Source: Amanita rubescens (Eukaryota > Basidiomycota > Agaricomycetes > Agaricales > Amanitaceae). From it: a stretch of 64,000 nt of DNA. Numbering within the stretch: position 1 is the first letter of the stretch; every line of letters begins with the position of its first letter. Positions 5,207 through 50,716 of this stretch are shown piece by piece. Location of the stretch: contig WION01000123.1 in the NCBI GenBank assembly GCA_015039365.1, positions 1 through 64,000 on the forward strand, given 5' to 3'. The position numbers and the translations under genes were made by a program. The notes below the pieces were generated by a model. That model did no database searches. It saw nothing but the letters and a program-made list of their open reading frames with translations, and had not been told where the DNA came from.

Positions 5207-6259
5207 ATGAAGGTAAAGCTCTTGTTGTAAACATTACGATTATGGTCAACTGATGCATTTGTGCAGTTCACTGCGCTCACTAGCATCGTTGCTCTTGCCC
5301 TGATCAGCGTCGCTGCTGCCGCTCCCGCTCCTGACCATGGCAAAGCCCCGGGCCATGTCCCTCCTCATCACGAAATTCCAGGCCATGGAAAGCCTCACGG
5401 CCATATAGTTGCTCGCGATGACGCAGTTGTTGACCATGATCATCATCGTCACCACCACCATGTTACCCGCGACGAGGAAGGCGCCGAGCATAAACACCAC
5501 CACCATGTTCCTCGCGACGAGGAAACTGCGGAGCATAAACACGACGACCACCACCACCACCATGTTGCTCGCGACGAGGAAACCGCGGAGCATAAACACG
5601 ACGACGACGACCACCACCACCACCATGTTGCCCGTGACGAGGAAGGCGCTGAGCATAAACACCACCATCACCATCACCATGTTGCTCGCGACGAGGAATC
5701 CGCGGAGCATAAACACGACCACCACCGCCACCACCATGTTGCCCGTGATGAGGAAGGCGCTAAGCATAAACACCACCATCACTACAATGTCGCCCGCGAC
5801 GAGGAAACTGCTGAGCATAAACATCACCACCACCACCATGTTGCCCGTGACGAGGAAAGTGCTGAGCACAAACACCATCACCACCACCATGTCGCCCGCG
5901 ACGAGGAAACTGCCGAGCACAAACATCACCACCACCATGTTCCTCGCGAAGTGGAAACCGCTGAGCATAAACACGACGACGATGACCACCACCACCACCA
6001 CCGCCACCATGTCGCCCGCGACGAGGAAACTGCTGAGCATAAACATAATCACCACCACCATGTTGCCCGTGACGAGGAAGGTGCTGAGCACAAACACCAT
6101 CACCACCACCATGTCGCCCGCGACGAGGAAACTGCCGAGCACAAACACGACCACGACCACGACCGCCACCATGTCGCCCGCGACGAGGAAACTACCGAGC
6201 ATAAACATCACCACCATCACCATGTTCCTCGTGACGATGCAGTTGCTGACCAACAGTGA
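5207..6259 (+). CDS. Secreted histidine-rich repeat protein
   Basis: The gene has two exons: 5207-5212 (ATG AAG only) and 5267-6259, separated by a 54 bp GT..AG intron, giving 332 residues. The mature start is set by the signal peptide (M-K-F-T-A-L then a hydrophobic core ending in S-V-A-A-A). The rest is about 16 imperfect copies of a unit V-A-R-D-E-E-(T/S/G)-A-E-H-K-H followed by 3-8 His, sometimes with Asp pairs, and ends in D-D-A-V-A-D-Q-Q. Such His density is expected to bind Zn, Ni or Cu (inference); no enzyme domain is seen. Repeat units differ by in-frame gains and losses of His codons. The start is chosen because the short exon and intron are conserved in four relatives. It lies between two related copies (3.7 and 9.3 kb), which implies local duplication. 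Cell-wall, metal-buffering or host-interaction roles are all possible. Confidence 0.8.
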
Positions 6260-7164
6260 TCATCACCGCCGTGGCAAACCTCTCGGCTTAACGCTCCACC
6301 TACCCCCATATTTGAATCGATGCGTTTCTTTACTCATTCGTCCCGACCCGTTTCATCACTCCTATTCCATATATAGATGCTGTATATGCCCTCTGTAGTA
6401 GTATAGGACTTCGAACGGGAATTTTGAATCAGATCCCTTTGACTATCCATGTGCGAATTCTTTACTTGAAATTGTTTTATCGACCACCAAACGCGTTTGC
6501 TTCGCGAACGAACATTGAACGTTGAACAACCTTTTATTCCGTTCCCACGATCTCCTCACTGGCATCCTTATCTTATCGCTTTGCACATATTTGACCCAGA
6601 GCCTGTGCACGACCTTTTTCGTTTGCTGCGTTTTTGTCCAAGTTCAAAATCCTACTTCGATACCTTCTTCTGCTTCGCTGACAGTGACATTTTTCCGCTC
6701 ATATCCTCCGTTCCATCTTTCCGGTTGGTTCCAATATCGGCGAAGCAGCAATTTTCCCATCCTTCAACACCTGGATGTGTTTACTTGTCAATGCGATTGA
6801 ATATAGACTTGACTCCGAAGGTCGGATGAGTCATACATACACAATTATTTTATCAAGACGACAAACATGTTCTATCATTGATCTATCTCCCAGAATACCA
6901 ATACTTCTTTCGCCCTCTATATATACAGGGTGACACGAAGAGAGCGAATTCGTATGACGGAGGACGCGGATTCAAGACCGACGATTTTGCAAAGATAGGC
7001 AGGATAGCTTGTAGCTTATACCTCAGACCATGGCTGACGTCAATTTTCCCGAAGATTATTGTTCGGTTGACTTCTCTTTCTCCGTTACATCACGTCTGTT
7101 GATGCCACGTGCGCGGTTGCCGCGAAGCTGAAAGATATCAATAAAGGTACGCATCAATACAAGT
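6260..7164. other. 3' flank and gene-free stretch
   Basis: The family 3' flank block lies at about 6340-6450. Beyond it I see only chance frames. Confidence 0.4.
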
Positions 7165-9266: not shown

Positions 9267-9346
9267 GGCTATGCCTTCGTTCTTCAGACAAGCACCTTCC
9301 CCCGTTTTCGAAGTCGACTTCCGAATTCTCTACCCCCCGAACAACA

Positions 9347-10340
9347 ATGAAGGTAAAGATTTTGCTGCGAGCATTATGATCATGGTCAACTCACGCATTT
9401 CATGCAGTTCACTGCGCTCGGGAGCCTTGTTGCTCTTGCCCTCATCAGTGTAGCTGCTGCCGCCGTGGTTCCTCCCGTTGGCAAAGCTCCTGGTTACGTC
9501 CCTCCGCCTGGCAAAACTCTGGACCATGTCCCTCCTCCTTCCAAAACCCCTGACCACATTCCTCCGCCGCCCCCCAGCGCAACTCCCGGCCAGGTTCCTC
9601 CCCGTGGCAAACCTCCAGGCAAGGCTCCACCCACTGATAAGACTCCTGGACAAATGTCTGGCGGAAAAACTCCCAACCAAGTTACTCCCAGTGACACGAT
9701 TCCAGACAAGGCTCCTCCCCAAGGCGAACCGCACGGTCAGGTTCCTCCTCCTGCCAAAACTCCCACCCATATTCCTCCGCCGCCCCCCAGCGCAACTCCC
9801 AACCAGGCTCCTCCTCACGGAAAGCCCCCCGGCAAGGTTCCCCAAGACAAAACTCCCGGACAACTTCCTCCTGCTGGGAAAACTCCCGACAAGGTTACTC
9901 CCCGTGACGTGATTCCAGACAAGGCTCCTCCCCAAGGCGAACCCCATGGTCAGGTTCCTCCTCCTGCCAAAACTCCCACCCATATTCCTCCGCCGCCCCC
10001 CAGCGCAACTCCCAACCATGTTCCTCCCCATGGCAAACCTCCGGGTAAGGTTCCATCCACTGATAAGACTCCTGGACAAATGTCTGGCGGAAAAACTCCC
10101 GACCAAGTTACCCCCTGTGATGCGATTCCAGACAAGGCTCCTCCCCAAGGCGAACCTCACGGTCAGGTTCCTCCTCCCGCCAAAACTCCCACCCATATTC
10201 TTCCGCCGCCCCCCAGCGCCACTCCCAGCCAGGCCCCTCCCCATGGAAAACCCCCGGCAAGGTTCAGCCCCACGACAAAACTCCCGGACAAGTTCCTCCT
10301 GCTGGAAAAACACCAGGCCAAATTACTCCCCGTGACATGA
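9347..10340 (+). CDS. Secreted proline-rich repeat protein, C-terminus frameshifted
   Basis: Exons are 9347-9352 (ATG AAG) and 9408-10340, with a 55 bp intron, giving 312 residues as read. The signal peptide (M-K-F-T-A-L-G-S-L-V then a core ending in V-A-A-A-A) is nearly the same as in the His-rich gene, but the mature protein is unrelated: Pro-Gly-Lys repeats with the units G-K-x-P-G-x-(V/A)-P-P and H-I-P-P-P-P-P-S-A-T-P inside a longer ~70-72 residue repeat, three and a half times. No enzyme domain is present. Near 10250 a C run is one base shorter than in the earlier repeat copies; the frame leaves the repeat and stops at 10340. The old frame stays open to 10546. A sequencing error in the C run cannot be excluded. 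A cell-wall or extracellular-matrix role is inference. Confidence 0.75.
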
Positions 10341-19807: not shown

Positions 19808-20034
19808 TGTATCAACCAGATTCACGCAGATTGTACTTTTGCTACGCGCGCAATTCTAAGTACTGGCCCTGCCACATTTATTCTAAAGCAGAAAAACGTA
19901 GTTTGCGACAGAAGAGCCTGCAAAACGGTAAATTTCCAGCTCGTTCCCCACTCGGACCATTTCTCACTGGGGTCACCGTGATGGCGGCAGATAAGGTTTC
20001 TAAGTCCGACTAATGACTCTGAGCGCTCGCGACG

Positions 20035-21953
20035 ATGTTACTGGAGCTACGTGGTTCGTCCGCACGCCTGTTTTTCTTCATGTCTTTTAATCTATCGCAT
20101 AAGCAACCCCACTACATCACTTCCACTCCCCGGCGATTTGCTCGAAGAAATTTTCATGCATCTAGACGCACAAGATCTCAGAAAGTGCCTGCCGGTATCA
20201 AAGCAAATCAACAATTTCATACATTCCTCGGTGATCCTTCGGTATCGATTGGCCTGTCATGCGGCGGGCGTCGTTGACAACACGTATTGCACGCTCTCAT
20301 TCGCGGCACGCTACGAGGCTCTGATGAAGCGAGAAAAGGCATGGTGCAGGTTTCAGCCAGCCTTTATAAAGACATTTGATGATGTGCATAACCGATATCC
20401 CGTGTGGGACTTGACATCGGGCGTCTATCTGTATTATTTCCATGTCTCGGTCCATATTTATCACCTGCACTATTGCTTGCTTCCATCCACACCCGACGAT
20501 GTTCTACGATGGACAGCCATACCCAATCATACTCCAATAGTCGAGTTGACCTGGAATCGTCCACGTGCAGATATTATCCGTGAGGCGGGCATGGCCATTG
20601 ACGAACATGATCTCATGGTCAACGTCATCTCGTGCGTTCGTCTAAAACCTATTTTATGAATGACACTCTCACTTTAAACACCAGGTCGACGCATGTCGAT
20701 CAAGAAGGCACCATGCCACGGTGTTCAATATACATGACTCTTCTTCAATTCTCCACTGGAGAATACCATCCGTTGGCACATTGTCCACGAATCGATATAC
20801 AAGACAACTACGAACTAAATCAGATCATTAAGCTGGAAATCGCCGGCGACAACCTTGCTCTCCTAGTCGGGACTCGCGGGGGGGATCAACTATATATCTT
20901 CGACTGGAAGACGGGCCATAAGAGATTGGTAAGTAGCTACCCTAATCCATTTTCTTTCCTAAACATTTGTCTTTTTTGCGTTAGAAACATCGAACTTGGG
21001 AGAGGGCCTACTTTTTTCTTGCTTTTGTATCACCCGAAATTCTTCTGATACCCAACGATATCCGGGGCCAACATGAAGTTTGGGAGATCCCCAAGGAAGC
21101 GGATAGCGTTCCATATCAAGTGTTAAGTCTTCGTATTCCTGCTCTATCCAAGGAATATTCTATCAGTGGATTTTATTGCAGTGGTCGACCTGGCCCACAT
21201 AACGTTCTACGCACTTCACCTAAACCATTCCACGCTTCTGTAGACGAAACCACGATCATGACCACGGTTTTTATTAGTACCGCCCTTTCCCCAAACGAAA
21301 CCAACCGAACATTCGTTCTTTTCATCCGCCGCCGATCTCTTCTAGAAACCATTACGAACCTCAGACGGACAGGTGTGCCTCCCCCATTCAATGTTCTAGC
21401 TCATGCCAATAACGAGGTGGTCATGTATGATGACTCGGGAATGCCATACTCTTTCTCCACTATCACGGACTTTGAGGCACCCTCCGGAAAGGTGTATACC
21501 GTGAAGTCAATTCCTTGGTCTGAATGGGGACCACCTATCTCAAGGTGGCTCGAGGCCAGGAGCAAGGCTCGAACCTGGTACACCTCTTCCGCCGGACAAA
21601 GATGGGCGCGTCTTGAGCCCGTCAATGACGATGACAATGATGAAAGGTGCCGACTCAGCATAGTCGATTTCAACCCATATAACGTCTGCAATCCTCAAGA
21701 TAATCTGCCAGGAGAGTTGGTTGTAGGACGGAAAGGAGACTACTTTGATCATGGTAATGTTTTTGCGGAGGTGATCGAGATGGGATTGGGCTGTACGATA
21801 TACACAGCTCCCGAGGTGTATGATTATAATAGGTGGTTCATGGACGACGAGAGAGTGTTGGGTTTTAAGGTATTTGCAAGGCATGGCTTTACGTCGTATA
21901 ACTTACGGTTGGCAGTACGACTGGGACTCGGAGAACTTGAACGGAGGGGTTGA
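20035..21953 (+). CDS. F-box protein, left inverted-repeat copy
   Basis: Three exons: to 20631, 20685-20928 and 20985-21953, with introns of 53 and 56 bp; the joined frame is open to the stop. The F-box is near the N-terminus (L-P-L-P-G-D-L-L-E-E-I-F-M-H-L-D, then L-R-K-C-L-P-V-S-K). F-box proteins recruit targets to SCF ubiquitin ligases through Skp1. The C-terminal ~450 residues contain beta-rich segments (D-Q-L-Y-I-F-D-W-K-T-G, I-L-L-I-P-N-D-I) as in agaricomycete F-box proteins with a propeller-like tail (inference). The start is unresolved: the ATG at 20035 is in another frame and would need a very short intron near 20070-20103. Against the right copy, the F-box half differs mostly by amino-acid-changing substitutions, while exon 3 is nearly the same. 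Confidence 0.7.
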
Positions 21954-22583
21954 AGAGATAACTGTATTCCATTTTGGCTGAGAGATTGTCATGCTTATGT
22001 TTCTGCTCGTCCTTGGTACTCGTCAGAAATATATCACTTGCTGCCTCGACATCTACCACACCCTCAATCAAGATAAATGACTGGAATTGAGGGTATTGAC
22101 TTGTCACCGGCGGTGATGACGTTGGTTCAGTACAACTTCCTCATGGAAAAGACAAAACATCTTACTACTAGTACGTGGCATGTCTGGCAGTCGTATTTTT
22201 TCGCTTGGTTCTCCAGCGACGTTGTAGCTGCAAGTCTACATGCTTTATAAACCCATTCTACATAGCATTCTGAGTTTGCGCCACTAGTAGTACAGCAGTT
22301 CACGATTATGATTCTGCTGCGACGCCGAATGTGAAGTGTGAATTCTAAAAACAAATACGTGCTGCTCCAGGTTTGACTCGACATTACTACAGCGTACTAT
22401 CACACAGTGCTAGCGAGAGGCACGCGAAGCACCAACAAGGTCCTGTAATGTGTCGGTGGCGAAAACTTATAAAGCGCGCCACTCGAGTTCGCTGTCCCGG
22501 GATTACAATAACGACTAATCAATATATTCAAATCTGCATACAACTATGTACAATTGAAAGACTCGGACAAGGTTAGTAGATTG

Positions 22584-22986
22584 CTACAGTAACTGGAACC
22601 CGGTTGCAAGCTCTGGATTCAACTGCATTGATCATATTAATAAAACCCTCTTGGCACTGATTTCACCGAAAACGTACTAAATCCATGTAGGCGGCATCCT
22701 CCTGGGCTTTCTCCTTAAATTTATGCATCGCCCAGCCGAAAGGCTCGCCATTAACTGACGCATACCAGTCAGTTTACGGTGCAATCGATTTTCTCAGAGG
22801 TACTACGTACTGTAGACAGTAGCATGATGGAGGTACCGATTGTTGTCATACCCCCAACGATATTTGGGAGCTGGCAGTCTCTTGATTGTGGTCCAAATAA
22901 AGAGGTTCTGGGAATTGGCTGTGTTGGCGTTAGTTAAGTACAACATGGACAGCTGGGAAAGTACCATTACAGAGGTTGGTGTTCAT
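22584..22986 (-). CDS. Small dsRBD-like protein, left inverted-repeat copy
   Basis: Four exons on the minus strand, with the same layout and total span (403 bp) as the right copy, give 79 residues. The ATG is at 22986 and the stop at 22584. The fold pattern P-x-Y, H-H-A-T-V-Y-I-N-G-E-P-F-G and K-E-K-A-Q-E-D-A-A-Y-M resembles a single double-stranded-RNA-binding domain: three strands, then a helix starting with a basic K-x-x-A-x-x-x-A-A motif. This copy reads H-K-F-K-E-K at the start of that helix, more basic than the right copy. There is no signal peptide or other domain. Assignment to the dsRBD fold is inference from pattern only. The gene is too short and too split to be seen by open-frame search. 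Confidence 0.6.
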
Positions 22987-23879
22987 TTCGCTGGTACTGA
23001 GGAGTTGAACGATATTTTAATACCTGTATGACCCCACAGCCTTCTGAGTTGCGGCGATGCCATAGTACGCCAGTTAACAGTTATGATTCTGCTGCGACGA
23101 GGGTGAAGAGTCAAACCAATGCGTGACGCAAGAAATATAATGGAAAATGAAGCGTGAAATTTGGTATAAATCATGTTATAGCACTGAGGATGCACATAGC
23201 ATTACCTGTAAAAGAAATTGAATTCATATGGATTTCGTCATGTTAGACTCCTTACTACCAAAAACGCCTCAAGGTCCTAGTACGGCTGAAGCGTCGCCGA
23301 AATCCTAATGCGTTTAAGGCGCACGTCGGTGAATGATAGCACTGCCTAAGGACAATAGAGTTGTGATGCGAGAAACTGAGTCTTATAGTGTAAGTTACTT
23401 ACTGCCATACTTGAAAAGAGCGACGGGCGGACAGTAAAAATGACCCGACAAGTTCCTAAAGCAATTTGGCGGCGAAAGTCTAAATTAGGGCATGCCTTCC
23501 GCGTCAATTGTTTGCGACCTGGACTCCGAATCATTTTGATCGCCACTGACAACGCTGTTGTTCGTTTGACCGCCCAGTCAGCACATGTTGTACAGCCACT
23601 GTGAAACGATGAGGGATCGTCGAGGACTCAGTCATGACGATTTCTGGGGCCAGGAACTTTCCTTTGTACCGGGACGAAGCGATTATCTCGAAGGTGGTGC
23701 TGATCGTGGTTCCCAGAAATCCTAGCCAGCGCTGACGGGATACGGCAGTAGAGTAGGGTAGCGGAGAGGCGCTCGTGCCACTGGCGAAAGAGACATGAGC
23801 GGTAGCGGGGTAACGGAGCGGGACGACTCGAATGTGATACCTGTAGCAAGGAAACGCGTTCCAAACAATGTCATTGCAA

Positions 23880-24163
23880 CAATGACATTTGCTGCTATCC
23901 CACTTTCTGCGTCATCGCTTTGGACAACCGTACCCGACTTTCTTCGAGCCCGGATCTGAGGGCGCGCTGCTTCACATGTGCATAAACCCCGTTACGGAAT
24001 ACATGTCAGAAGATCCTGAGATATTCAAGTTGTTAGCAGCACATAACACGCAAATCCGTGAATTAAAATTCGCCGCGAGTATGGCCTTCATAGCGGGCGG
24101 TGTCATCTATGATCTCTTTCCAAACGTGAAAGCATTCCCAGCGCTCGAGGTGTTTCCTATATA
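23880..24163 (+). pseudogene. F-box-like gene relic cut by the inverted-repeat edge
   Basis: One frame reads A-A-I-P-L-S-A-S-S-L-W-T-T-V, the segment that usually follows an F-box, and stops at about 23960. Another frame continues with I-R-E-L-K-F-A-A-S-M and F-P-A-L-E-V-F-P-I, a leucine-rich style segment. A frameshift separates them. Similarity to the right arm ends in the middle of this segment. Confidence 0.45.
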
Positions 24164-25165
24164 AGGCCAAAATCACCTCTCTCTTTGTCTACTTGAAGGA
24201 CAAGAATAATCCCAGTTTAAGAGAGAGCGTCGTCAGCTGATATAAATACCTGGTGAACTCCCAACCATGACGAGCAAGGACATGGCGTCTAAGGAATGAA
24301 AATCAGCAGATCTCAAGATAAAAGAGACCAATTTCTTCAATTCCCTCGGAGCGGAGGAGCACAAGCCGAAACGGATGAGTTCAATTACTCCCGTTGCAGA
24401 CAAGTTTCCTCATTCTTCGAGCAGCGCTCGTTAACGTTCTTTATCCTGTCGAGAAATGCCGCTATGGACAAGCATAGACTCGTAGTGCTGGTGACTGAGT
24501 AACCGATAAATACCTCTCTTCCACATCGTCTCTAATTAACGCTTTCCAGACTTTGTTATGTGGGTTTTTCTCATCTCTCTCTTTATCATCACCAATCAAC
24601 ACCCTGTCAGCTGTACTGTCTGCGTAATAAATGGAAAATTTCTTAATCACGCCATCTCTCGGTTTCTTTTTCGACCGTTTCGACCATTCGCCTATACATT
24701 CTTTTTCTTTTCGTGCTCACGTCCGTATTTATTGCAGCTAAAGTGAACACTTGAGGCAGGTACATGTCCTGTGCTCATCATATGCGCTGTGCAAGTTATC
24801 TGAGTTGTTGCTGCCATCGGCGGCGGCGGCGTTTGCAGCGTTGAATGGAGGTAGCGATGAGAGCGAGAGTGCCAGCTTGACATTCACGGCGGTTCACGCC
24901 AGAATATAACAACAGGCTGGCACGGTTTGTCCGTCATAATCCTCGAGTCGCATGCTTCTGAGGTGTTCGTAAATGAATGTAGCGAATTTTGGTTCTAAAC
25001 CGAAAACTTAACGAGCTCGTGCACAATCAACTGTCTCAAATTGTCCAATCCGGATACACCGTACTACAGGAAACTAACAAATAGTCCAATCTGGATACAC
25101 TGTCATACTACAGGGAAGACACAACAGAACAGAGCACAGAAAAACTTGTTCATGACACAACAATC
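24164..25165. other. No intact gene; possible decayed secreted-protein fragment
   Basis: On the minus strand around 24760-24890 a short frame starting V-K-L-A-L-S-L-S-S-L followed by N-A-A-N-A-A-A-A-D looks like a signal peptide but lacks the Met, and its duplicate near 32670-32780 is also broken. Segmental duplication copy A starts here at about 24770. Confidence 0.35.
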
Positions 25166-25891
25166 TCAAAACTCGTCGTCGTCGCCCAGGCCTCGCCTCA
25201 TGCAAAAGAACTGGAAACCAAGGTCACAAGTCTCACCATCTCGGAGACATATGTAGAGGTGATCTTCACGGCAATGTTCGAAGCGGTGCTCGAAGCGGTG
25301 TACCCTATGGCCGCAGAATTCGCGCGGCCTTCCATCGCATCTGCATCTGGACCTCATGCACTACAACAACATTAAGGGACAAATCACGACAATAATTGAT
25401 CTATTCTTACGTGTCTAGGATGGCCGTGTCCAGGAAAGCCAGGGTGGCCAGGAAAGCCTGGAGGGCCAGGGTGGCCGGGAAAGCCGGGGGGGCCGGGAAA
25501 GCCGGGGGGGCCGGGAGGGGGACTAGGTGGGCCTGGAGGGCCTGGAGGGCCGGGGTGGCCGGGACCAGGAGGGCCGGGAGGTGGACTAGGGGGGCCAGGA
25601 GGGGGACTAGGAGGGCCGGGAGGGGGACTAGGTGGGCCAGGAGGGCCAGGAGGGCCGGGGTGGCCGGGACCAGGTGGACCAGGTGGGCCGGGAATAGGGG
25701 GGCCTGGAGGGCCTGGGTGGCCGGGTCCAGGAGGGCCAGGCGGGAGGGGTTCGCGGGCTGCAATGGGGCCGACGGCGGCGGCGACGCCGATGAGGGCAAG
25801 AGCAATGATGCTACTGAAAGCAGTGATCTAGGAAAATGCGTAAGTTGACCATTGTCATACAGGTTACAGTAAGAACCGTCCGTACCTTCAT
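25166..25891 (-). CDS. Secreted collagen-like Gly-Pro repeat protein with 8-Cys domain
   Basis: Exons 25886-25891 (ATG AAG), 25411-25827 and 25166-25360, with introns of 58 and 50 bp, both phase 0; 205 residues. The signal peptide (I-T-A-F-S-S-I-I-A-L-A-L-I-G-V-A-A-A-V) is the family one. Residues ~32-135 are Gly-Pro-Pro, Gly-His-Pro and Ser-Pro-Pro-Pro units with many G-P-P and P-G-P triplets, like a short collagen-type stretch. Exon 3 is a Cys-rich module: C-x4-C-x-C-D-G-x5-F-C-G, then C-x3-H-L-Y-x-C, D-G-E-T-C-D-L-G, and a last C; eight Cys, probably four disulfides. Compared with the 33 kb paralogue, a six-residue duplication (H-R-F-E-H-R-F-E-H) and a C-terminal extension (R-G-L-G then Asp-rich), caused by TGA to CGA, are new. 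Function unknown; small-secreted-protein or effector-like. Confidence 0.78.
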
Positions 25892-25967
25892 TGTTATGTC
25901 GTGTGTAAGATGAGGATTCAAATTCGACACAGAGAGAAGAAATTTGTCTGCTGAGTGAAGCCGAACC

Positions 25968-25996
25968 GAGGCCTCTTTATACTTTTTTGACGACGT
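25968..25996 (-). promoter_or_regulatory. Family TATA motif
   Basis: On the minus strand TCGTCAAAAAAGTATAAAG then AGGCCTC, about 80 bp before the ATG of the collagen-like gene. The upstream CTGCGG element is replaced by a GCGGCCGCAAGACATACC block near 26050, shared with the 33.5 kb copy. Confidence 0.6.
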
Positions 25997-28900
25997 TAAC
26001 AATATAGATGTAGCCGTGATTCCTAATTTCCTCGTTCGTGAAATGGTATGTCTTGCGGCCGCTGGGGACTATTTTGATGATTCACCCACTATGGGTGTCA
26101 CTCATGTTTGCCTCAAAAGCATATGCGATCACTATCGTGCCTTGATGGATGCAGAAACATGACCCTGGGTTCCTGTGGAACCCCGCCACCAACAGAATCG
26201 GCTTAGATTGAGTTCAATATTCAATATCCAAGATCCGTTTATAGCATTGTGCAGCAGTGATTCGATGGCCGCACGCGGGCAAATTGCCTCATTTTTTGCA
26301 TTTCAGCGAGGCAGAACGAGATGGTATGTAGGCGGAGGATATTGACTTACGATCGAGTGTAAAATTATCATTCTCCATATTTACGTGAATGAACTCGTGA
26401 TGATCAGTCAGTCTTCTCTATTCAATGAAGGGGTTGTGGCTTTACACGAGGGCTGATCTGGGTTGATACGAATTGTCAGGATTTGAGAATGGAGATATCA
26501 GAACGACGCTATGCTATGTACCGGTGTAGTATGGACACCGCGACCAGGTTTTATGACAAGATCTTAGGGTGGAGATACGCGAGAGGCGCCTGGGCTGTGT
26601 TCTGGCTCGTAGTAATGGCTGCCTGACAAGGATATGTTAAATCTAGCTGCATTGACATATTTTTTGCTGTGAGTTCTTCAAGGCGGTGAAACAGGAAAGT
26701 CCGTTGGCTCACCCAGTTCCTTTCTTTCGGCTTCCCTAGACCGTTATTATGTCGAGAGGACTTTGCTCTCAATAGGGATTAAATTTTGTTCAGTCGTGAG
26801 CTCTGGTGACGATGGATGCCCTGTATGTACGTTTTGTCTAACGCTATTTCGCCAGGCATTACAGCGTCACGTACCATTGGGGCGCCTGGAATCTTCGAGG
26901 AATCTTATCGGTTTGACTGGGCAAGGTGTGATTCTACTTGACGTTGTAACCATACTACATGATCACCGATCACCAATCGCCGATCGTGATGCCAAGAAAA
27001 CGTGGATCGAGACGGGAATGTCACGGTGTCCAAATTTGGTAGTGACTCGCATCACTCGGATTGGACACATTTTTCGAGCATGTCTTCACAGCCCTCTGGT
27101 CAGAATGTACCGCAAAAGTATATCCCCGTAACAAATATAACGGAGAAGGAGTTGCGATTCTAGAAGTCATGGCGCGTTTGCAGCAAATCATTGATGTCAA
27201 TTAACTTTCCAGGGACCGGATCTCGGCTGCACCGAGTAAGATTGTTATGTAATCCACGCTAAGATTGATTTGTATTGATTTATATCAATCAGAAACGGCG
27301 CAACGTCATAATTTTCGACTGACCTGTGATGGACTTTGTCTGTCTTTCCTCGTATTGCGGACCGATCGTACCCAGATACTCTTCACCGCGCGCGAAACGT
27401 GTTGTTCATTAGATTCCCAACAGAAATTCCGTCCTAGCGAGGAAGTATCACCTAACAACCGAGTTTATTTCCGTGCTGATATTTGGAACTTTAAAACATA
27501 CCCCTGTTTTGCGGCACAAAATCTCCTTACTTTATGCCTTGCTTCTTGAACAGGGAATACATCTGCCTCAACTAAATCGAGTCGGATGCTGTGGTGTGAC
27601 ATGTGAACGCCCGAAGCTTTGTCGCCTTGAATTAAGTTACTGCTGGCCGCTGGCGCTAATAACTATGGTCAAGCTAGCGGCACCGAAATATGTTTTTGCA
27701 CAGCATCCACTAGAGTATGGGTGTAAATGCAGGAGAAGACGGTCACTGAGAGGGTATTTTACTCATGGTACAGCCATGGTGCAGTGCGTCGTGTTGACAA
27801 CGTTTAGCTTCCAGTTTTGGAACTTCGCCTGAACCGCTGGCACAGGTTTGGAAGGAATTCAATTGTGGCCAATGCAGGCTAACTAGCCCGTGCCTGGCAC
27901 CCTATCACCGCAACGCCTCTCTTGTTGCACGTCCAGAGCCGAAGTCGATGCTTACGGACAGAAGAGAGCGAGATGGATTCCAGGTATGCCCGTGGAATTT
28001 CTCACGGTTGCTGAATACATCCGATTACAACGGATGCCCTAACCCTCTAGTGAATTTTAAGTGTAGATTAGTTACCTTGAAAGTCGTGATCCGGGAGCCA
28101 CAAGGATACACGACGAGAGGAAATAAAAATGAAAAATTCATCGTAAAACGATGAAGGAAGGGAAAGTGTGCGTATGTCATAATGTGGTCAAGAAACCGAG
28201 GACTCGGGCTGTTCTCACCGCTGTTAATTCCTCTTGAGGAAAAACGGGTCCCGACAGGGCTGTACTGGACCGCCAATACCGGCTTCTCGTTGACCATTTG
28301 GATTAAATTTTATTCGCCTTCCAGGGCCTGAGACTCGTCCATGATCTAAACGAGGTGCACCAAAGGTAGACAGAGCAATTATGGATAGAAAGATGAGTTT
28401 GTCCAATGCCCTGATCGTGCCCAATCCTGGCGAATAATGCCCGCCGTTTCCTATATGATTTGGTTTAGTCGTTCCTAAATGTAGGCGTATAGAGTTAAGG
28501 GCGCAGAAGGGGCCCTTGAGTCTTTCCTCAACCTGGATCCATGGCCGGAACGAAGCGAAATGGGACCCATCCATAGCGCGGTGCGGATTCTGCTATCGAG
28601 AGCCCTCGAAAAAATTTCCTTGACGGTCCCGCCTGCCTTGTGCACCCGCCATCGAGTGTCACCACACAGGTTGGAAGGTGAGATGGGCTGGCTCGCCCTC
28701 TCCGCCCTTCAAGTTCCTATACACCTCATCCGTTATCCCAGGAAACGCCAGAACATGCTGATCAATGTCTATGACAAGGCTGGCTCATTCTTATTCCTTC
28801 GGTTAACATCTGTTTCACCGAGAAGGTCGACAAGCTAGCGAAGAAAGGAAATCTGAATGGGTGGAGATGGTGATCGTTTCCAGGCTTTGGGAAGATTTCC

Positions 28901-31900
28901 AACAACGGATCGTCTTTGCCAATGTTATACGGTGATCGGTGACTGCAAAGGCCAAATCGAGAGTTAGACAAAGCATGTTTTCGGTCCCTCTGGTAAAAGT
29001 AGACGGATCACTAGGCAAGAATGGTTTGCGGTTGACATGGAGGGACATCACTGTTGACATTTCATAATGAAACGATGACCTTGGCAGACAGAAGATGCCA
29101 AGGTGCCAAGAAGGTGCCTGAAATGAGGCAACTCGGGGTTGATCGATTTGCAAGTGATTTACTCGCGAAGAATGAAGGGAGAGCTCTGTCACGCGGCCAG
29201 GTCAGGGGCCGCTTTGGTCAACGACGTTTCATACGCGGTGTTTGAGATTTACGTTCAGGTTACAGCCTTTCATACATTTGAGCAACGCATTGATAACGGG
29301 CAATCGCCGACATCCCTAGCGATTCGAAAAAACTGCTTCGTCCAGGATAGTTCCATCAGTTGATGCCTTCACTGCACTGACTGTGGGGTTACAGAGCAAT
29401 GTGGCTTGGGCCCCACGCCAAATCGAGAAAAACTTTGAAGGTAAACATATATGCGACTTCGGTCGTGTTGCAATGTTTTATCTTGAAGGGGGAAGGTCAA
29501 GGAAGGCGAATGAGAAGAATATGCGACATACGCTGCACAGGGGATGAAGCCCACGAGATGACCTCACACGTCTCGTATAAGTGTTAGAAGGACATAGGAT
29601 ACCATATTGCGGAAGTGAGACGTGTGAAATTGAGGATGAGTGCTAGGTGATGTTGATGCGTCGGAATACAACGAGGACAGGTGTTTTTGAAGGGAAAATA
29701 GTATCCGTAATGCAGGGATCTACACGAAGTCAATACGCGACAGAAAACAGGACGATTGTAGGATAACATACAATCCAAGCGCCTTTTCCTTGTCTTTCAC
29801 TAACCCGCTCAGAAATTCGACGTACAAGCAGAGGGATAGCACTGCATAGATGGCATTTTAAGTATTTTGAGTGATGCGCTCTCCGCCAACGAGGTTGATA
29901 GGATCGGATCTAGAGCTAAACGACGCGTTAGTTAACATAGCGCTCGTAACAACATCTTCTAGATACCTAACTGTTCGTTTCTTCTCTGGGGGGCTGGGGG
30001 GCTGGGGGGCGGAGAAGGACACGAGGTGGGGCCGTGTGAATTTCCATTTTTTTAGATAATACTGACTGTAATACTAATACTATTACTGTCAGTTATTCAG
30101 AACTGTTTTAAATGTGCTGATCGACTCGACAAGGAGATAACCCCATTCCCTGGAAACGTAACTAAAAGAAGAGTCGAGAGAGATGGTTGAAAAAAGGTAT
30201 GTAAATAATAAAAAATTGGAGTCAGAAACCCTCGAGCAGCGAGTAGTTCGGCCAGGACTCTCACTGTCCGCCATCTCCACCATTCCCTCTTGACGAAAAA
30301 GAGGAAGAACAGAAGACAAAACGAAACTTACCAATCTTGGGTACGCGCCACTACTCAGCTTTGCCGTCTCGTAGGCTCAAAGATATTGGCATGATCTCGT
30401 TAGACGCGCAGGGTGGTAAGGCTCTGAGAAGACGAGAATGGAAAGGAAAATTTCGCTCTGCGGTCGCCCTTGAACTCAAGAGAATACGGAGACGTCAACT
30501 TCAAGGATCAAAGGGAACGAAAAGAGAAAGGCACAAAAAAAATTTCCAAGCGCATTCTTCAAGTGTATATCGATTGTCTTGGCTCGTCGTCGCCCACCTG
30601 TATTGTTCTCCCATGAAAATTTCAGCAACGTTGACGGAAGAGACGTAGGAACGAAAAAAAAAATAGACGCCCGCTCTTCTTTCACATGATAGTCGCCCGC
30701 CCCGCCCTCGTTCGCCCGTAAAGAAGAATGAGCCCCTGGCCTGATTAAAGGGATGAAGGAAGACAGGAACAAAAGAAAAATCGTTCCATCTTATAGCGAA
30801 TCTTTTGCCCGTCGCGGCCCGCCTGATTTAACGCTCGCCCAATGGGGACGAACTACTAGCACCAAGGAGAAGCAGCCGCAGAAGAACACATCGGAAAGCA
30901 GAGATAAACGATGCCCGCCATGGCCCACAATCTAAGGAATCTAGGTTTGACGGTGAAAGAATCTGGACTATGGGTTATGTCAACGAAGAAGAGATGAATC
31001 ACACACCTTTTTCGGTTATCTCGCCCGTGACGTAGCCTGCGTCTCCTGGATCTTCATTTGTTTCGCCGCCGCTGCCCGCCCCACTTCATGACCACCACAA
31101 GCTGAAATGTAACCACAACGATGGAGAGAAAAAGAATTCTGGACATCTTAGCCATGTGGGTGAGGAAGATAAAAAAGAAAGCGAAGCGCCATTCCCGACG
31201 CCTCATTCTCCATCCTCTGCCATTCGGCGTCTGCCCTTATCGTGGATTTCGGAAGAAACGACGAACAGACCATCTCCGTACGTTACCAAATTCATGTTCT
31301 TGAAGTCCGTCTGTAACGTCTAAAAAGAATCTGCGCCAAGGGGGACGTCAATAGCTGAAGTTGTGTAAATGGAGGAACAAAACAAAATTTCCGACCCCGT
31401 TTTCATCTCGTGTCGATTTTTCTGCCTGTCGTCGCCCGCCTGACTTGACGTTCGCCCATGGCAATCTGTGGATATCAGCAACGCCGATAGAGGATAAAAT
31501 AAAGTCCGAATGAAGGAAAAGAGAAGAAAGTACGAAACTTTTCTAAACGTTTTATGCGGTTTTAACCTTTTTTATTATCCGATTTTTATAAAGGTTTTAT
31601 GGGCATATGGGAGTCGTCTAGTGGGGGTATTGGGAAAATCAAGAAAAGAGACAAGATAGAAAGAACAAGCTAAATCCGAGTTTGCTCTGAGTTTTGAATT
31701 GGGTTTTCGTATGAAACGACCGGAAAAAAGATGAGAGAGAAGGAACGTGCGCCAGCCCCAGTCTAGATTTCAGGGTTTTTCTTTTCTGATATTTTTGTAG
31801 GATTTGGATTTTATCATCAAGAATCGAGGATCGCCTGAAGCCAGAGGCGAGAGACGAAGAATGCCGCGAGGGAAGGAACAGCCCCAGGAAGCGAAGATAA

Positions 31901-32654: not shown

Positions 32655-35600
32655 GGAGGCAAGTTACCTGGGTTGTTGCTGCCATCGGCGGCGACGGCGC
32701 CTGCAGTGTTGAATGGAGAGGCAGTATTGGATCGGCTCAGGCCCGTAGGAGTGAGAGTAGCAGCTTGACGTTCGCGTCGGCTTACGCTAGATCACGGGTG
32801 GGTCACGAACCGCAGCCCGTCATTGTGACATTTATGTGCAATACGGACCGCACCTATTGAATTTAGGTTCTAAATAACGAGCCATGCAAAAATCATCTGT
32901 CTCAAATTGTCCAATCTGGATACATCATACTATTACAGGGACTAACAGACGAAGCAGAACATAGAACAAATTGTTCACGACACAACGACTTCAAATTCAG
33001 AGCTTGACCTCACCTAGGCCTCATCTCCTGCAAGAGAACTTAAAACCAAGGTCACAAGTCTCTCCACCTCTGAGACATTCGTAGAGGTGATCTTCGTCAC
33101 AATCTTCGAAGCGCGGTTCCTGATGGCCGCAGAATCCGTGCGGCCTTCCATCACATCTGCATTTGGACCTCAGGCACTACAGCCACATTAAAAATTGAAT
33201 CACGAGCGTAATTGATCTATTCTTACGTGAGGATGGCCGGGGTGGATAGGATGGCCAGGGGGGAGAGCAGGGAAGGGTTCGCGCGCCGCAATGGGGCCGG
33301 CAGCGGTAGCGACGCCGATGAGAGCAAGAGCAATGACGCTACCAGTGGAAGCAGTGAACTGGGCAAACGCGTAAGTAGATCACCGTCATAAAGGCTGCAG
33401 TAAGGACTGTACCTTCATTGTGGTGCCAAATTCGAGACAGAGGCAAGAAACATGTCCGATGAGTGAAGCAGAACCGTCTTGTAACCTTTCGATGACGTTA
33501 CACAGAATAAATATGTGAAAGTAATTCCTGATTTCCTCGTTCGATGAATGGCATGTCTTGCGGCCGTTGGGGACTATTTTGATGATTTAGGAGGAAAGGC
33601 ATGTACGATCGCTATCATGATGCTGTAGATGAACCCGTATCCGTGTCTCCGTCAACAACCAGAATTGGCTACTTTTATATTATAGAAGCATTACTAAATT
33701 TAATACAAGTGGATTCAGCGGGGTTTGCCCCAAACAAGCTGAAGACAGAGAGTCCCTGAAGCTTGTATTTAATATTCAATGTCCAAGTTGATAGCAATGT
33801 GCAGTAGTCATATGATCTTTTGCATCGGTTTGACTGTGCAAGGCATGATTATACTTTGGAAACATGTTTTTAGCACCTCTTTGCAGCCCTCTCGTCGAAG
33901 TTTACCGCAAACGATATCTCCGTAACAAACATAGCGGGAGAAGAAGCTGAAGTCATCAGCAAATCATTGATGTCAATTACTTTTCCCAGGGACTGGATCT
34001 CGTGCCCCGAGTAAGTTGTTGTCAACCCGCGCTAAGATTGATTTGTATCAATCAGGAACGGCGCAAGGTCATATTTTCTACTGACCTGCAATGGACTAGT
34101 AGACTTTGTCTTTCTTCGCATGTTAACAAGAGACTCTTCGCCGCGGGTAGAAAGTATTCGAACGTTTATTAGATCCCCACAGAAACTGCGTCCTATAATA
34201 AAAATACGGGGAAGTAGCACCTAACAACAGAGTTTATTTCCTACTGCGGAACTTTAAGGCATACGTCGGTTTTGCGCCACCAAATCTCCTTACCAACCGT
34301 TTATGCCATGCTTCTTGAACAGTAAATTATATCTGCCTCAACTAAATCGAGTCAAGTGCGGTGGTGCATGGAGGAGCAGCATGGTCACGGTGAGAGGGTA
34401 TTTACTCATGGGACAGCCATGGTGCAGTACGTCGTGTTGACAACGTTTAGCTTCTAGTTTTGGAACTTGTTCACCTGGACCGCTGGCACCGGCTGGAATG
34501 TGACCGATGCAGGCTGGCAAACCTGCGCCTGGAACCATGTTGTATTCCAGACTCGCGTTGGACGTCCAGAGCCGAAATCGTCTTTGACATTGCTTACGAA
34601 TAGAAGATAGCAAGGATTCCAGGTATGCTCATGGAGTTTCTCGACTTTGTCGGATAGATCGGAGTACGACGGATGGTTAACTAATTCTGCGGGGAATTTT
34701 AAGCGTGCATTAGTTAACTTGAAAGTCACAATCTTGGAGCCACAAGGATGCACGATGAGATGAAAAGAAGATGAAAAATGTACCATAAAACGGTGAGGGA
34801 AGGGAAAATGTGCGTATATCATAATGTGGTCAAGAAACTGCGAATTACGGGCATGGTTAAGACTCGGGCTATTCTCACCGCTGTTGATCTCTCTCAAAAC
34901 GAGTCCAGATATCCACGAAAGGACTGCACTGGATCACCAATATCGGCTTCTCGTTGATCCTTTCGATTAATATTAGAGCCTGGGAGTTGTCCGTGATCTA
35001 GAAGAGATGCTTGCGCCAAAGGTAGAAAGAGCAATCATGGAAAAGAAAGAGTTTGTCCATCCCTGATCGCCCGATCCTGGCGATTAATGCCCGGCGTTGC
35101 TGTATGATTTGGTTCAGTCGTTCCTAAGACGGGTATTGTGGTCTATGCGTATGGAGTTTAGGGGCGCAAAAAAGCCCCTGAGTCTTTCCTCAGGCCGGAT
35201 CCATGGTCTAGGAAGGAAGGTGGGCAGAGGTGATGGGTTATGAATGCCGCTTTATCCAACGATGTTTTCTCCGCGGTGTCTGAGATTTACGTACAGGTTA
35301 CAGTCTTGAGCTCCTCCAGAATGGTTCTATCAATTGATGTCTTCACCGCACCGACTGTGAGACTACAGAGTAGGCTAGCAACCTCTATGTATGCGGACAA
35401 TCAAGGAGAGATGGACGAGAAGAGAATGCGACATACGCTACGCAGCGGATGAAAACCACGAGATGGCATCACACGTCTCGTGCAAATGTTAGAGGGAGAA
35501 AGGATGCCATCCTGCGGAAATGAGACGTGTGAAATTGAGGTTGAGCGTTAGGTGATGTTGATGCGTCGGAATACGACGATGACAGGTGTTTTTGAAGGGA

Positions 35601-37050
35601 ATATAGTATCCGTAATGCGGAGATCTACACGAACACATACTCAAAGCACTTTTGCCTTATAACCTAGTCAGAAATTCGACGTGTACGCAGATCCGCTCAG
35701 GGAGGGCACTGCATGTGGCTGCTTTTTTAGTATTTTGAGCGTCGCGTTCTCCGCCAACGAGGTTGATAAGAGCAGGTCGACAACTGAACGACGCATTGGT
35801 TAACATAGCGCCCGTAATAGCATCTTCTAGATTCTCAATTGTTCGTTTCTTCTGAGGCGGACTCAAAGAGCATGAGGCATACGAGGGAATTTCCGAAACT
35901 CAGCCTTGATCCGATACTACGCCGACGGTCAGTTACGTGTCAGTTGTGGGCCACCGCTTCGCGTGGCAGGGTCCGAGGCCAACCTGCGCTATCGGTCATA
36001 TAGCAGCACAGGCATGGGTCATAGGAGGCGAGGGCGAACGACAACGATATTCGTGTATCGCCGCTGCTTGAGCGGGAAACGCCGCGAATTGCTGTGCGAG
36101 GAAGAGACCGAGTCCTTTCAGGCCTCGGAACTTCTCGGAAGAAGCTTTGGTAGTCTTGACCCACAACAAGGAAGCACAAGGAGATGACCCGCTTCTCACT
36201 GCCGTTTTCCGTCATTCCCTCTTGACGAAAAAAGAAGAAAAGAAGAAAGAAAAGAAACCTACCAATCTGGGTGCGAATCACTTGCTTTGCCGTCGTCTTC
36301 GTATGTTCAAAGATATCCATGTGATCTAGGAACGTTATATGCGCAGGGGGGCAAGAGAGGACAAGGATTCGGTCCTCGCTTTGGATGACGGTCGCCCGCC
36401 CTGGCTTGACGTTCCCCTTTGGACGCGACAGAACACCTGCGAAAATGAAGATGTCAACCTCAAGGATCAAGGGGAACGAGAAAAAGAGGGTTTATCCTTC
36501 GCCCGTCCGTCTCGACGTTCGCCCATGGGAATATGTGGATACCAGCAACGCTCAATGAAAAAAAGTTCCAGTGAAAAAGAAAGGGGGAAGAGAGAAAGAA
36601 AAGAAAAGAAAGTACGAAGCCGCTTTGAACGATTTTTTCTTACGTTTCTAACCTCTTTTCTTTTCTTGTCATTTTCATTTTTTTTCCTTTCAAACAGCCG
36701 CCATGCACATACAGTGGGTATACGCGTCTGGAGTCGACGTCCATCCATTTAAGAAAGTCGAACAAGGCGGCAAAAGGGGAACAAGGACGAGTCAAATCTG
36801 GGTTTATTTACGCCTTGAATTTTTTTGGCTTTTTACGAGAAAGGTGCGCCAGCGCTCTAGATTTTTTTTGCGATTTTATTTTTTACCTTTTTTTGGTTTG
36901 GTTGTAGGTGGCTCAGGTGGAGTGGACGAACTGCCGACACCGGGAAAGAGAGGAACGATGCCCACCGTGGTCCATAATCCAAGTTTGGCGGTGAAGAAGG
37001 GAAAGAATTGGACTATAAATTATGTCGACGAATAAGAGATGTTTCGGCTG
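32655..37050. repeat. Segmental duplication, copy B
   Basis: The shorter partner of 24770-31830. It begins near GTTACCTGGGTTGTTGCTGC at 32662 and fades out near 37050. It includes the 33.0 kb secreted-protein gene and the matching flanks. Confidence 0.75.
33021..33418 (-). CDS. Secreted 8-Cys protein with short Gly-His-Pro linker
   Basis: Exons 33413-33418 (ATG AAG), 33227-33358 and 33021-33176; introns 54 and 50 bp, both phase 0; 97 residues and no stop. The signal peptide F-T-A-S-T-G-S-V-I-A-L-A-L-I-G-V is followed by G-P-I-A-A-R-E-P, a short P-P-G-H-P-I-H-P-G-H-P-H linker, and the Cys module C-x4-C-x-C-D-G-x5-F-C-G, C-x3-H-L-Y-x-C, G-G-E-T-C-D-L-G, C-R-R. It is the copy-B partner of the gene at 25.2 kb but has almost no collagen-like repeat. 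The TATA site is decayed to GGTTACAAGACGG (33471-33500 region), so expression may be weak. It is too short and too split to appear as a long open frame. Confidence 0.72.
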
Positions 37051-38100: not shown

Positions 38101-38337
38101 TGTGAAGACTTAGCCTATCGAAGCTGTAAGCACGAAAGGTAATGTCTCCAACGGAGGATTCCAGAGAGAGAGAGAGAGATCACGCGTAGATATGCGTAGT
38201 CAAAGGGTTAGAGAAATCCTTCGGTAACGAGTACAAGCTCGGCTTAAGTACTCTAGTATTCTAAATATATGTAGTCAAGGAGCCTGATAAGGCTCTTACG
38301 AGTTTTAATATCGGTGTTTGCGGCCTCATCCTTTACA
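38101..38337 (-). repeat. 3' LTR
   Basis: 237 bp, the mate of 42006-42242. It contains a GA microsatellite. The minus-strand polypurine stretch TTGGAGGGCGAA lies directly before it (38338-38349). The coding frame runs a few bases into this LTR. Confidence 0.9.
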
Positions 38338-41300
38338 TTCGCCCTCCAAGGTTTGAACCTGCAAACCTTCTTGCCGCAAGCAAACACGGTTTCTTCATCA
38401 TAACATCTTGGTGGTGACCACTCCCATCGTCGGCGTCACGGTTGTCATCCTCTCCAGGCGCGTGTGGTTCGTCGACGTCCGCGGGAAGTCTGGACTGCTC
38501 GGCGAGGGACCTCTTAGACCACTTATCCGTCTCGTCCTCGCATGTGTCCACAACCTCGATTAGTGTCTCCGCGCCACTACGAGTATGGTTTTGTCTTGTA
38601 AAGCATCCGCGTCCACGGGCAGCGCCGTTCGGCGAGTCATCCTGTGTGCCGCCTGCGTGCGGCTTTTGAGCCTCGGTAGGCTGGGTGCCATCTGATGGCT
38701 TTTGAGGGCCTTTTCGAATGAGTCTTTTGGTAAGCCTCGTCCTGTCACCACCGTGTAGTTGTTCGGCAAGTTCAACGCGCGTGCGTCCAGTGGTGGTGGA
38801 TGTAGCTAGGCAGCCGTGGGAGTAACCAATGTCGGGCCGGTCTATGGGTTTGCCAAATCCGGGTGTGCCCGAGTCACCAATCTCGGTGCGTCGTCCCATC
38901 TCTCTTACGCCCTCCATAACGAGCTCTAACATGGAGAGGCCCATGGTAGGACCCTTGCCGGAACGCGCCTCGGCCGCGAGCTTATCGGGCGACTCCTGTA
39001 AGTCAATCTCGACGCTTTCGGTTGCAGCTGAGCTAATAGAGTCAAGTTCTTCGCCGCACATTTCCAAGGCTTCCGTAGAACCTACTACCACACGCGTGGG
39101 GTTTAGGCCTATGAGAACTTTGTGCTGGTATAAGAAGGGCGTCCCCAGGATCATGTCGTAAGTGCCCAGGTTTACGACGTCGAAACGTCGTTTCTCGTTT
39201 ATCCCCTGATACTTAAAGTCCACAGACACGGAACAGTTAATTTTCGAACGCGAACCGTGTACGGCCAGCTGAACGTTGGTTCGCCCAGCCAAAACCTCGA
39301 GAGGAAGTTTCAGCTGGTCTACAATTGTGGTAGACATAAAATCAGCCATCGAGCCCGTGTCGAGCAAGGCATGTACGGGCTGGCCATTCACATCGACGGT
39401 CAGAATGATAGGTTTTGGAATGAGCCGTCTAAAATCTTTCGGGCGCATTGCGGTACGTCCGACAGCCTCTGGCGCTTCTTCAGCTGCTTTCTCATCGTAC
39501 TTGCAGGATGTGAGTCGTGACCGCTCCTCATTTTTATCTGGTCCATCGCCATTCTCGGGCATTCCAGACCCGCCCTCCATTTCAGCGGTAGGGAAATGAA
39601 CCATATTGATTTGTAAGTCCACTTCCCGAGCATAGTCGTCGTTTACTTGGACTGAACTAAAGTTAACTGCACCCGCATTGATAGTAGGGGCTTTGGCCTG
39701 GCGACGTTTCGGGCAATTTCGACTCTCGTGGCCCACATCCTTGCACGAGAAGCAGCGCTGTTCAGCGCGCAGCCTATCTCGTTCCTCTTCAGACATTCGG
39801 GATCGAGCAGTCTTTCGGAAGTCACGTCCTTGTGAGTGTTGGGTTTCCGTCGAAGTGTTGGGAGCTGACATATTCTCGGCAGGTTCGTCAGTTTCTGGAA
39901 GCTCTTCTTCACATAAGCCAGTACCCTCCAGTTGAATTGGTTCAGCTTCGTCCACCTGGTTTACAAAGCGGCCCCAACGGCGACCCGTAGCCTGGCCTTT
40001 CCACTTGCGCTCTTCGCGCTTTTTAGTTTCAATAGCGTCTTCACGACGCTGAGCATATTTTACAAGTTTTTCGAACCCGGTGCGTTCAGGATTCATACCC
40101 TTCTCGATTAGGTTCAGCCGAAGATCCTGACGCATTCCCTGCCAGAAGATCTGCGTAACTTCACGATCGGTTACATCTGGGAAGCGGACGGCCATAGCTT
40201 CAAGTTCGCGGGCGTAGTCACGGATGGACATGGGACCCTGGACTGCGCTCATCATTCTTTCGCGCAGTTCCAGTTTGAAGTGGGAGGGAAAACAGTAGTC
40301 GAAGAGCCCTTCATAGACTAGCTGCCTATCCCATTTCTTTATGTTCCTTACTACGTGCTTCATCATGAATTGACTAGCTTTTCCGCTTGTCCATTTCACC
40401 ATAAACTGGACCGACGTCCTAGGGCCAATCTCATACCAGTTGCAGTAGGTGTCGACCTCGAACGTCCATTGGTCGAATATATCCAAGTCCGCCGTACCGT
40501 TATACTCAAACGGGTCTTTCATCTTAATGTTTTTCATACTCGTTTTCTTCGCCTTCTTATGATTACGTCCCTTCGGCGAAGCCTTGGACGACACGAAAGA
40601 GTCATCGCTTTCATTTTCGGAAGAGTCGGGGCCCGGCGGACTTGGTGGTCCGTGCCCATTTTCTTCGTCGGACTCCGAGTCACTCGAGGAAGGAGGTGGA
40701 CTAGGGTCCGCTTTTTTAGTTGTAGCTCGGAACCAACCGCCGTCAGGCTTCTCCGAGTCGTCACGTCTGAAGTGCTCAGGCCTCTGATGGAACAGGGAGT
40801 TAGACTCCGAGGCTTTCTTTTTTTCAAGTTTTTTCAGTTTGGGCTTAAAGCCCGAGTAGCGCGGACCGGTCTCGAGGGGGTCAACATTCTTTCCTTTTCG
40901 TTCATAAATAGACCCGCCCTCCATTTCGGTAGTTAGCCTAGTAGGAGACGAGGCTCCCTTTTTTGTATCTTCGTCTCCAAGTTCTAGTATGACAGCCATA
41001 ACATGAATTGGTTCATATTCCATATCAGATATGTCTCGTAGTTTACTTAATAATTCATCTACGAGGTCTTCGTCATCACTGGTATCAATTTCAGGTAAAC
41101 GAGGAGGTTCGATGCTCGCCCGAGTGGGGAAGTATTCAACTTCGCAGTCGTCCTCACTCAGTTGGTTATCACGGGGTCCCAGTTGGGCCTCGTCGTCGCT
41201 CGACTCATGTTGTTGTAGTCGGCTTAGGTCGGGGCGGCGGACGAGAGACCCGCCCTCCAGGTCGGCCCCAGATTTAGCCACGAGATTATCACTCAAGTGG

Positions 41301-41881: not shown

Positions 41882-42005
41882 TGTCGGTGAACGCAGAGAA
41901 AAAAAATTTTGATGTTGTTTTGGTTTGTTTTGAGGCGACGTCGGGGGTGATCAAGCCCTTTGGAAGCCTTGTAGGGTTTCTAAGAGTAGTTTATACGCAA
42001 AAAAA

Positions 42006-42242
42006 TGTGAAGACTTAGCCTATCGAAGCTGTAAGCACGAAAGGTAATGTCTCCAACGGAGGATTCCAGAGAGAGAGAGAGAGATCACGCGTAGATATGC
42101 GTAGTCAAAGGGTTAGAGAAATCCTTCGGTAACGAGTACAAGCTCGGCTTAAGTACTCTAGTATTCTAAATATATGTAGTCAAGGAGCCTGATAAGGCTC
42201 TTACGAGTTTTAATATCGGTGTTTGCGGCCTCATCCTTTACA
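42006..42242 (-). repeat. 5' LTR
   Basis: 237 bp, by eye the same as 38101-38337. The sequence following it on the minus strand (TTTTTTGCGTATAAAC) does not look like a tRNA-complementary primer site starting with TGG, so a self-priming mode is possible (inference). Confidence 0.9.
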
Positions 42243-42328
42243 TACGTACCTGCCGTCATATAGCCAAGGATTAACGTCAGTAGTTTCCTCTGTCGCTGCG
42301 GAGCCGCAGCAGGGGTGAGAATGTGGGT

Positions 42329-50710: not shown

Positions 50711-50716
50711 TGCATG

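Follow-up and report, generated by a model that had tools for sequence, protein, structure and literature searches.

Exons outrun introns between Amanita rubescens paralogues with a predicted dsRBD fold, probably as a result of positive selection

The region analysed here, hereafter the window, is a stretch of 64,000 nt from an assembly of Amanita rubescens (contig WION01000123.1, positions 1–64,000), where two copies of a short gene, the left copy (L) and the right copy (R), lie in opposite arms of an inverted repeat. Their product is predicted to adopt the fold of a single double-stranded RNA-binding domain (dsRBD), and they differ far more in their exons than in their introns. The exon–intron model follows the deposited R protein P0001 (F5887DRAFT_1081538), starting MNTNFSNSK, and places intron 1 at gene positions 17–68, intron 2 at 177–232 (56 bp), and intron 3 at 310–364 (55 bp). 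The arms are about 18.8 kb apart, and each holds one copy of this gene together with one F-box gene:

22584–22986, minus strand: left copy (L), exons 22971–22986, 22811–22918, 22678–22754, and 22584–22622; 79 residues with intron 1 at 22919–22970
22919–22970, 22755–22810, and 22623–22677, minus strand: introns of L, from the gene model
44126–44528, plus strand: right copy (R), exons 44126–44141, 44194–44301, 44358–44434, and 44490–44528; 79 residues, deposited as F5887DRAFT_1081538
44142–44193, 44302–44357, and 44435–44489, plus strand: introns of R, from the deposited protein
19808–24160, no strand: left arm of the inverted repeat (length about 4.35 kb; identity with the right arm 96.6% over 4365 alignment columns)
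42980–47291, no strand: right arm of the inverted repeat, which recurs in contig C262

L and R align without gaps and differ at 23 of 403 bases: 21 of the 240 exon bases, two bases of intron 1, and none of introns 2 and 3. Eighteen codons are affected, 15 with a new residue and 3 silently; an alternative intron 1 at 23–68 gives 19 differing codons, the extra one being codon 7. These values reproduce the counts of a preliminary description of the window, exactly for the introns and, for the approximately 240 coding bases, with its figures of about 18 changed codons, about 15 replacements, and 3 silent changes. Divergence is 8.75% in the exons (21/240), 1.2% in the introns (2/163), and 1.6% in the rest of the repeat (61/3897), an exon excess with a Fisher p of 3.5e-9 against the rest of the repeat and of 8e-4 against the introns. 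When a mask with the shape of the exons is slid along the repeat, the maximum (21) falls on this gene, and the best placement more than 403 bases away reaches 15, in the F-box gene. The introns had been described as spared; since they diverge at the background rate, as in a recent duplication, it is the exons that are odd.

Both versions are found elsewhere in the assembly. R recurs unchanged in C262, whereas L occurs in C700, C581, and C377 with no exon substitutions and a changed intron 3 (4 substitutions and 2 gap columns), which makes misassembly of one exon set, the error that could have undone the observation, unlikely. A third version, T3, is present in C327, C200, and C100, with zero exon substitutions among the three. 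At the T3 locus of C100 (L015:8016–9679), sequence matching window 47221–47435 (reversed) abuts that matching 43312–44736, as if the gene-bearing segment were inverted relative to its flank.

The comparison of same-locus copies (L in C28 and C700; R in C28 and C262; T3 in C327, C200, and C100) covers two or three distinct copies per locus from one assembly. Since none of these copies carries an exon substitution, the divergence lies between paralogues rather than alleles, as far as one assembly shows. This bears on the possibility that L and R are old alleles of a recognition locus—self/non-self or mating-type-like—held by balancing selection while their introns and flanks were homogenised. 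Such a locus would account for high replacement divergence amid near-identical surroundings, and presence/absence differences between contigs do occur: C423 and C663 lack window 22499–23490, a stretch that includes the L gene, and the C262 counterpart of the left arm ends at window 22256 and restarts at 24159, while the right arm is nearly unchanged there (99.7% over window 42243–47448) and the spacer is 97% identical. These differences reflect either haplotype structural variation or a collapsed assembly; when the gene-lacking junctions of C423 and C663 were read by eye for a mobile-element origin, no target-site duplication was evident. However, same-locus copies on different contigs show no exon substitutions relative to one another, and silent divergence within the exons is low. 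Balanced old alleles are thus quite unlikely, and the self/non-self analogy of the preliminary description is not favoured. Variation between loci fits neofunctionalisation or a multi-target arms race better than allelic recognition.

Within the clade of L, R, and T3, the replacement rate exceeds both the silent and the non-coding rates, as expected under positive selection. For L and R, dN (nonsynonymous changes per site) is 0.104 and dS (synonymous changes per site) is 0.068, and for the pairs containing T3 the dN/dS values are 0.178/0.021 and 0.192/0.043; exons 2 and 3 of R and T3 show 0 silent differences. With the neighbouring non-coding DNA as a yardstick, replacements are in excess in all three pairs (p = 8e-7 for L–R, then 2e-10 and 7e-14), and the excess holds after removal of codons with multiple hits (p = 7e-4, 1.5e-5, and 4e-6). 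Tests on the exons alone are significant for L–T3 (p = 0.0055) and R–T3 (p = 0.015), omega is 4.1 in a codon model fitted to all three sequences (likelihood-ratio test, p = 0.006), and parsimony places more replacement than silent changes on each branch. The pair tests, which reuse the same three sequences, are not mutually independent. The diversifying selection originally read from L and R is thus supported with the non-coding yardstick and with the addition of T3, but does not follow from the exons of L and R alone. Positive selection between paralogues on a dsRBD-fold protein is, in our assessment, very probable.

Several points weigh against positive selection. The exon-only test for L and R gives p = 0.36 (18 replacement and 3 silent changes), and once multi-hit codons are removed, exon-only values become 0.64 (L–R), 0.042 (L–T3), and 0.17 (R–T3), so that only L–T3 stays below 0.05. 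Between L and R, divergence at silent sites may somewhat exceed that of non-coding DNA (3 changes, p = 0.052). Adjacent double changes in codons 51, 53, and 57 (in the numbering with intron 1 at 23–68) could be multinucleotide mutations, which inflate dN/dS. There are just three distinct sequences, from a single assembly, and the boundaries of the variable patches described below were picked after the data were seen. L is absent among the annotated proteins returned by the protein searches made with R, with one relative from contig C608, and with an 11-member profile. Its intron 1 has the donor GTAATG, versus GTAAGG. Finally, the L-type copies in C700, C581, and C377 carry two one-base, frame-shifting exon deletions, and the T3 copy in C100 has a one-base frame-shifting insertion; these indels are either real decay or assembly errors.

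The last observations, together with the absence of the gene-bearing stretch from C423 and C663, are what would be expected if the copies were pseudogenes drifting under relaxed constraint. Drift, however, would bring the exons to the non-coding rate, and not to a rate approximately 4 to 6.5 times above it, and L, R, and T3 (in C327 and C200) retain open frames and GT–AG introns. Decay is therefore a very improbable account of the exon excess.

Gene conversion has to be considered as well, since the F-box genes that accompany the two copies show an exchange-like pattern:

19982–21953, plus strand: F-box gene region of the left arm, with the F-box domain in the open reading frame (ORF) 19982–20659
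45161–47117, minus strand: near-identical mirror of this gene in the right arm

Over the F-box region, C700, C581, and C377 are mutually identical, and the left-arm counterpart in C262 is distinguished from them by a single indel column, without base differences. In the inspected part of the 3′ half, the left arm of the window matches its own right arm, and not the left-arm version of C262 and C700. Conversion between arms seems to be the best reading of this sequence pattern; gene conversion, which had been set aside in the preliminary description, thus appears to occur at this locus. It may have homogenised the flanks, but on its own it cannot affect replacement sites differently from silent sites only a few bases away. 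No selection signal is claimed for the F-box gene itself: its first frame (stop to stop, 666 sites) gives 24.25 nonsynonymous and 3.75 synonymous changes, a count that includes a patch, maybe non-coding, beside a 9-base length difference, and its last frame gives a ratio of 3:2. The gene has at least 13 further relatives on other contigs, with 77–81% DNA identity over most of a 2093-base query.

A different form of conversion, in which exon patches were pasted from diverged relatives, would dispense with selection. The changes are indeed clustered, and the F-box gene looks conversion-like between the arms. Nevertheless, distant donors should bring silent changes with them: the T3 pairs with C608 relatives have dS values of 1.5 and 4.1 (two among the best 40 of 120 pairs), while exons 2 and 3 of R and T3 are silent-site identical. 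Nor was a donor found in the assembly: the patch of R (24 bases) and that of T3 (30 bases), searched with up to 3 mismatches, are found at their own loci only (2 and 2 places), and a protein search of the assembly to an E-value of 10 returns 15 places, all of them copies of L, R, or T3. Pasting without selection is thus very unlikely, and positive selection between paralogues remains the preferred explanation of the exon excess.

R is predicted to form an alpha1-beta1-beta2-beta3-alpha2 domain with a predicted local distance difference test (pLDDT) score of 88. The solved structures matching this model are mostly dsRBD proteins or complexes with them, among the 50 matches listed; in the mitoribosome structures, the matched chain is presumably an RNase-III-like protein with a dsRBD. 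Pfam PF00035 (dsrm) scores T3 at 18.8 bits, below its cut-off of 23, and gives no match to L or R at E-values up to 1. The initial dsRBD-like label is consequently borne out by fold and profile but not by Pfam's own model.

Among L, R, and T3, 29 of 77 compared residues vary, and they do so unevenly. Variation is high at residues 27–35 (9/9), 49–57 (7/9), and 64–68 (4/5), and low at residues 36–48 (2/13), 58–63 (0/6), and 69–77 (1/9), with 5/20 at residues 1–20. The first two stretches form patches whose coordinates were all derived by hand from the exon table:

22830–22856, minus strand: variable patch 1 of L (residues 27–35, exon 2), running from the end of beta1 through the loop to the start of beta2
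44256–44282, plus strand: variable patch 1 of R (residues 27–35)
22708–22734, minus strand: variable patch 2 of L (residues 49–57, exon 3), running from the end of beta3 through the loop to the start of alpha2
44378–44404, plus strand: variable patch 2 of R (residues 49–57), with the same extent from beta3 to alpha2

According to PMC11309768, dsRBDs contact double-stranded RNA (dsRNA) through the middle of alpha1, through GPxH in the beta1–beta2 loop, and through KKxAK where alpha2 begins, so that patches 1 and 2 would overlap or adjoin two of these three regions. Neither motif is kept: KKxAK is replaced by PEKAQ in R, KEKAQ in L, and KETAQ in T3, and GPxH was not seen by eye in the beta1–beta2 loop of any of them. 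Three modelled C608 relatives retain KKxA, with R, Q, or E at the last place (KKAAR, KKAAQ, and KKAAE). Computed net charges at pH 7 are +0.8 for L, −1.3 for R, and −2.2 for T3. Given the degraded KKxAK motif, dsRNA binding in the canonical mode appears doubtful for this clade.

Secretion as an effector or toxin, directed at a plant host, an animal, or a competitor, would suit the ectomycorrhizal life of A. rubescens. dsRBDs, however, are as a rule intracellular, and by eye the N-terminus (MNTNFSNSKNLYIW...) shows no evident hydrophobic signal sequence, which speaks against secretion and against the toxin and effector analogies drawn earlier. The tempo of change resembles that of the venom gene families described in PMC3862624; even so, a secreted role is unlikely.

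L, R, and T3 belong to a family of short single-dsRBD-fold proteins, of approximately 63–84 residues among deposited or modelled members. All matches from protein searches with R (E-values up to 0.1; 2 matches), one C608 relative (up to 0.01; 1 match), and the 11-member profile (up to 0.01; 4 matches) were A. rubescens proteins; such searches require shared 5-residue words and small genes often go unannotated, so this is weak evidence of absence from other species. The profile finds dsRBDs in the PDB at an E-value of 1e-5, and PF00035 is present in two A. rubescens relatives, P0003 and P0004. A scan of the whole assembly with PF00035 gave 57 exon-level matches, 25 of them above the cut-off, clustered on several contigs, with none listed at the L, R, or T3 locus. 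Many of these matches look like copies of each other, and some will be ordinary dsRBD genes. A literature search, beyond whose reach most subscription journals lie, found no description of such a family among the papers listed.

A nucleotide profile search (nhmmer) gave 19 rows (E-values up to 1). Of the 17 below 0.02 submitted to modelling, 16 yielded a model and 1 none; three models scoring below 50 (49, 25, and 5) were dropped, and the 13 kept, together with L, R, and T3, made 16 members and 120 pairs, the best 40 of which were compared. The 13 relatives, on C13, C162, and C608, all show the exon 2–intron 2–exon 3 arrangement, as the modelling required, and intron 2 of these relatives is alignable with intron 2 of the window genes. 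Two or three members are probably alleles of others, and the set, picked by likeness to the window genes, is not a fair sample of the family. In the pairs compared, dN exceeds dS just in the three pairs among L, R, and T3, and is below it in the other 37, which, within the sampled pairs, points to a burst confined to this clade.

We propose that L and R are recent paralogues of this family, with T3 as a third elsewhere in the genome, and that duplication took place partly within the inverted repeat. Replacements would then have accrued in each copy under positive selection (omega of about 4), concentrated on the beta1–beta2 and beta3–alpha2 patches, while introns, flanks, and silent sites would have diverged only as little as neutral change allows in young duplicates, perhaps with the help of inter-arm conversion. 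The variable patches would form a binding surface for something that changes or differs between paralogues; positive selection and a changing binding surface, taken jointly, are rather more probable than not in our judgement. Most of the canonical RNA-contact residues are gone from this clade, so the likeliest target of the protein is an intracellular partner that changes, either a protein or a structured RNA, and we infer a function as an intracellular recognition module. It could, for example, compete with Dicer or another dsRBD protein, or serve as its adaptor, where the cell is in conflict with mycoviruses or transposons. The dsRBD fold makes a conflict over RNA silencing or dsRNA the most attractive reading of such a role, one that is possible but tentative. 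Slightly more speculative is the reading that these genes form a lineage-specific fungal set of single-dsRBD miniproteins in which the dsRBD is a hypervariable recognition scaffold, diversified by selection between paralogues at two RNA-facing patches, and that they work inside the cell as recognisers or decoys when mycoviruses or transposons are fought through RNA silencing or dsRNA. If the paralogues do have different RNA or protein partners, they would provide a natural variant set for how a dsRBD changes its target, and could point the way to a fungal conflict system not yet known.

Further elements and repeats lie elsewhere in the window. A long terminal repeat (LTR) retrotransposon, of the Gypsy type in our reading, lies at 38101–42246, with gag and aspartic protease domains in ORF 38333–41950 (minus strand) and 241-bp LTRs alike at 240 of 241 bases; being absent at the matching place in C262, it is probably a recent insertion. 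Directly beside the right arm, a Helitron-like element (47448–56252) holds Helitron_like_N and PIF1 helicase ORFs on the minus strand and is likewise absent in C262, where window positions 47448 and 56252 adjoin. Near the 5′ end of its frame 50717–55228 (minus strand), 24-base tandem repeats (54747–55055) translate to LPxLVYYE-like repeats. Several frames stay open through the repetitive stretches at 5231–6398 (units of about 51 bases, with one frame rich in CAC/CAT codons) and 9330–10340 (units of about 213 bases). An old tandem duplication (25078–29995 and 32903–35863), whose matched pieces are approximately 73–88% identical, lies in the spacer between the two arms. Rfam gave 0 matches in the window at its gathering score.

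Among known systems, dsRBD proteins (PF00035 dsrm; Staufen, TRBP, HYL1, and DUS2) share the alpha-beta-beta-beta-alpha fold and the profile matches with L, R, and T3, which unlike them fall below the Pfam cut-off or have no match and do not keep KKxAK and GPxH. Exons that outrun introns are already known from animal venom families. Nakashima et al. (1993) reportedly described crotaline venom phospholipase A2 genes whose exons diverge more than their introns and flanks after duplication; this phospholipase is a secreted enzyme of an animal venom, unlike the fungal genes described here, where the same contrast appears in a gene with an intracellular-type fold and the changes lie at or beside RNA-contact regions. 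In conotoxin superfamilies (PMC3862624), introns are likewise conserved and the mature-peptide exon is fast-changing, with positively selected sites in it; conotoxins are venom peptides, unlike the present proteins with their dsRBD fold and no signal sequence by eye. A further parallel is loqs2 of Aedes, a duplicate derived from the RNA interference cofactor loqs and reported to take part in the control of virus infection (PMC10809485). Unlike loqs2, the fungal genes encode one domain and have no known parent and a degraded RNA-binding motif; like it, they are lineage-specific duplicates built on a dsRBD, in which duplication appears to have been followed by positive selection, a course read in loqs2 as neofunctionalisation.
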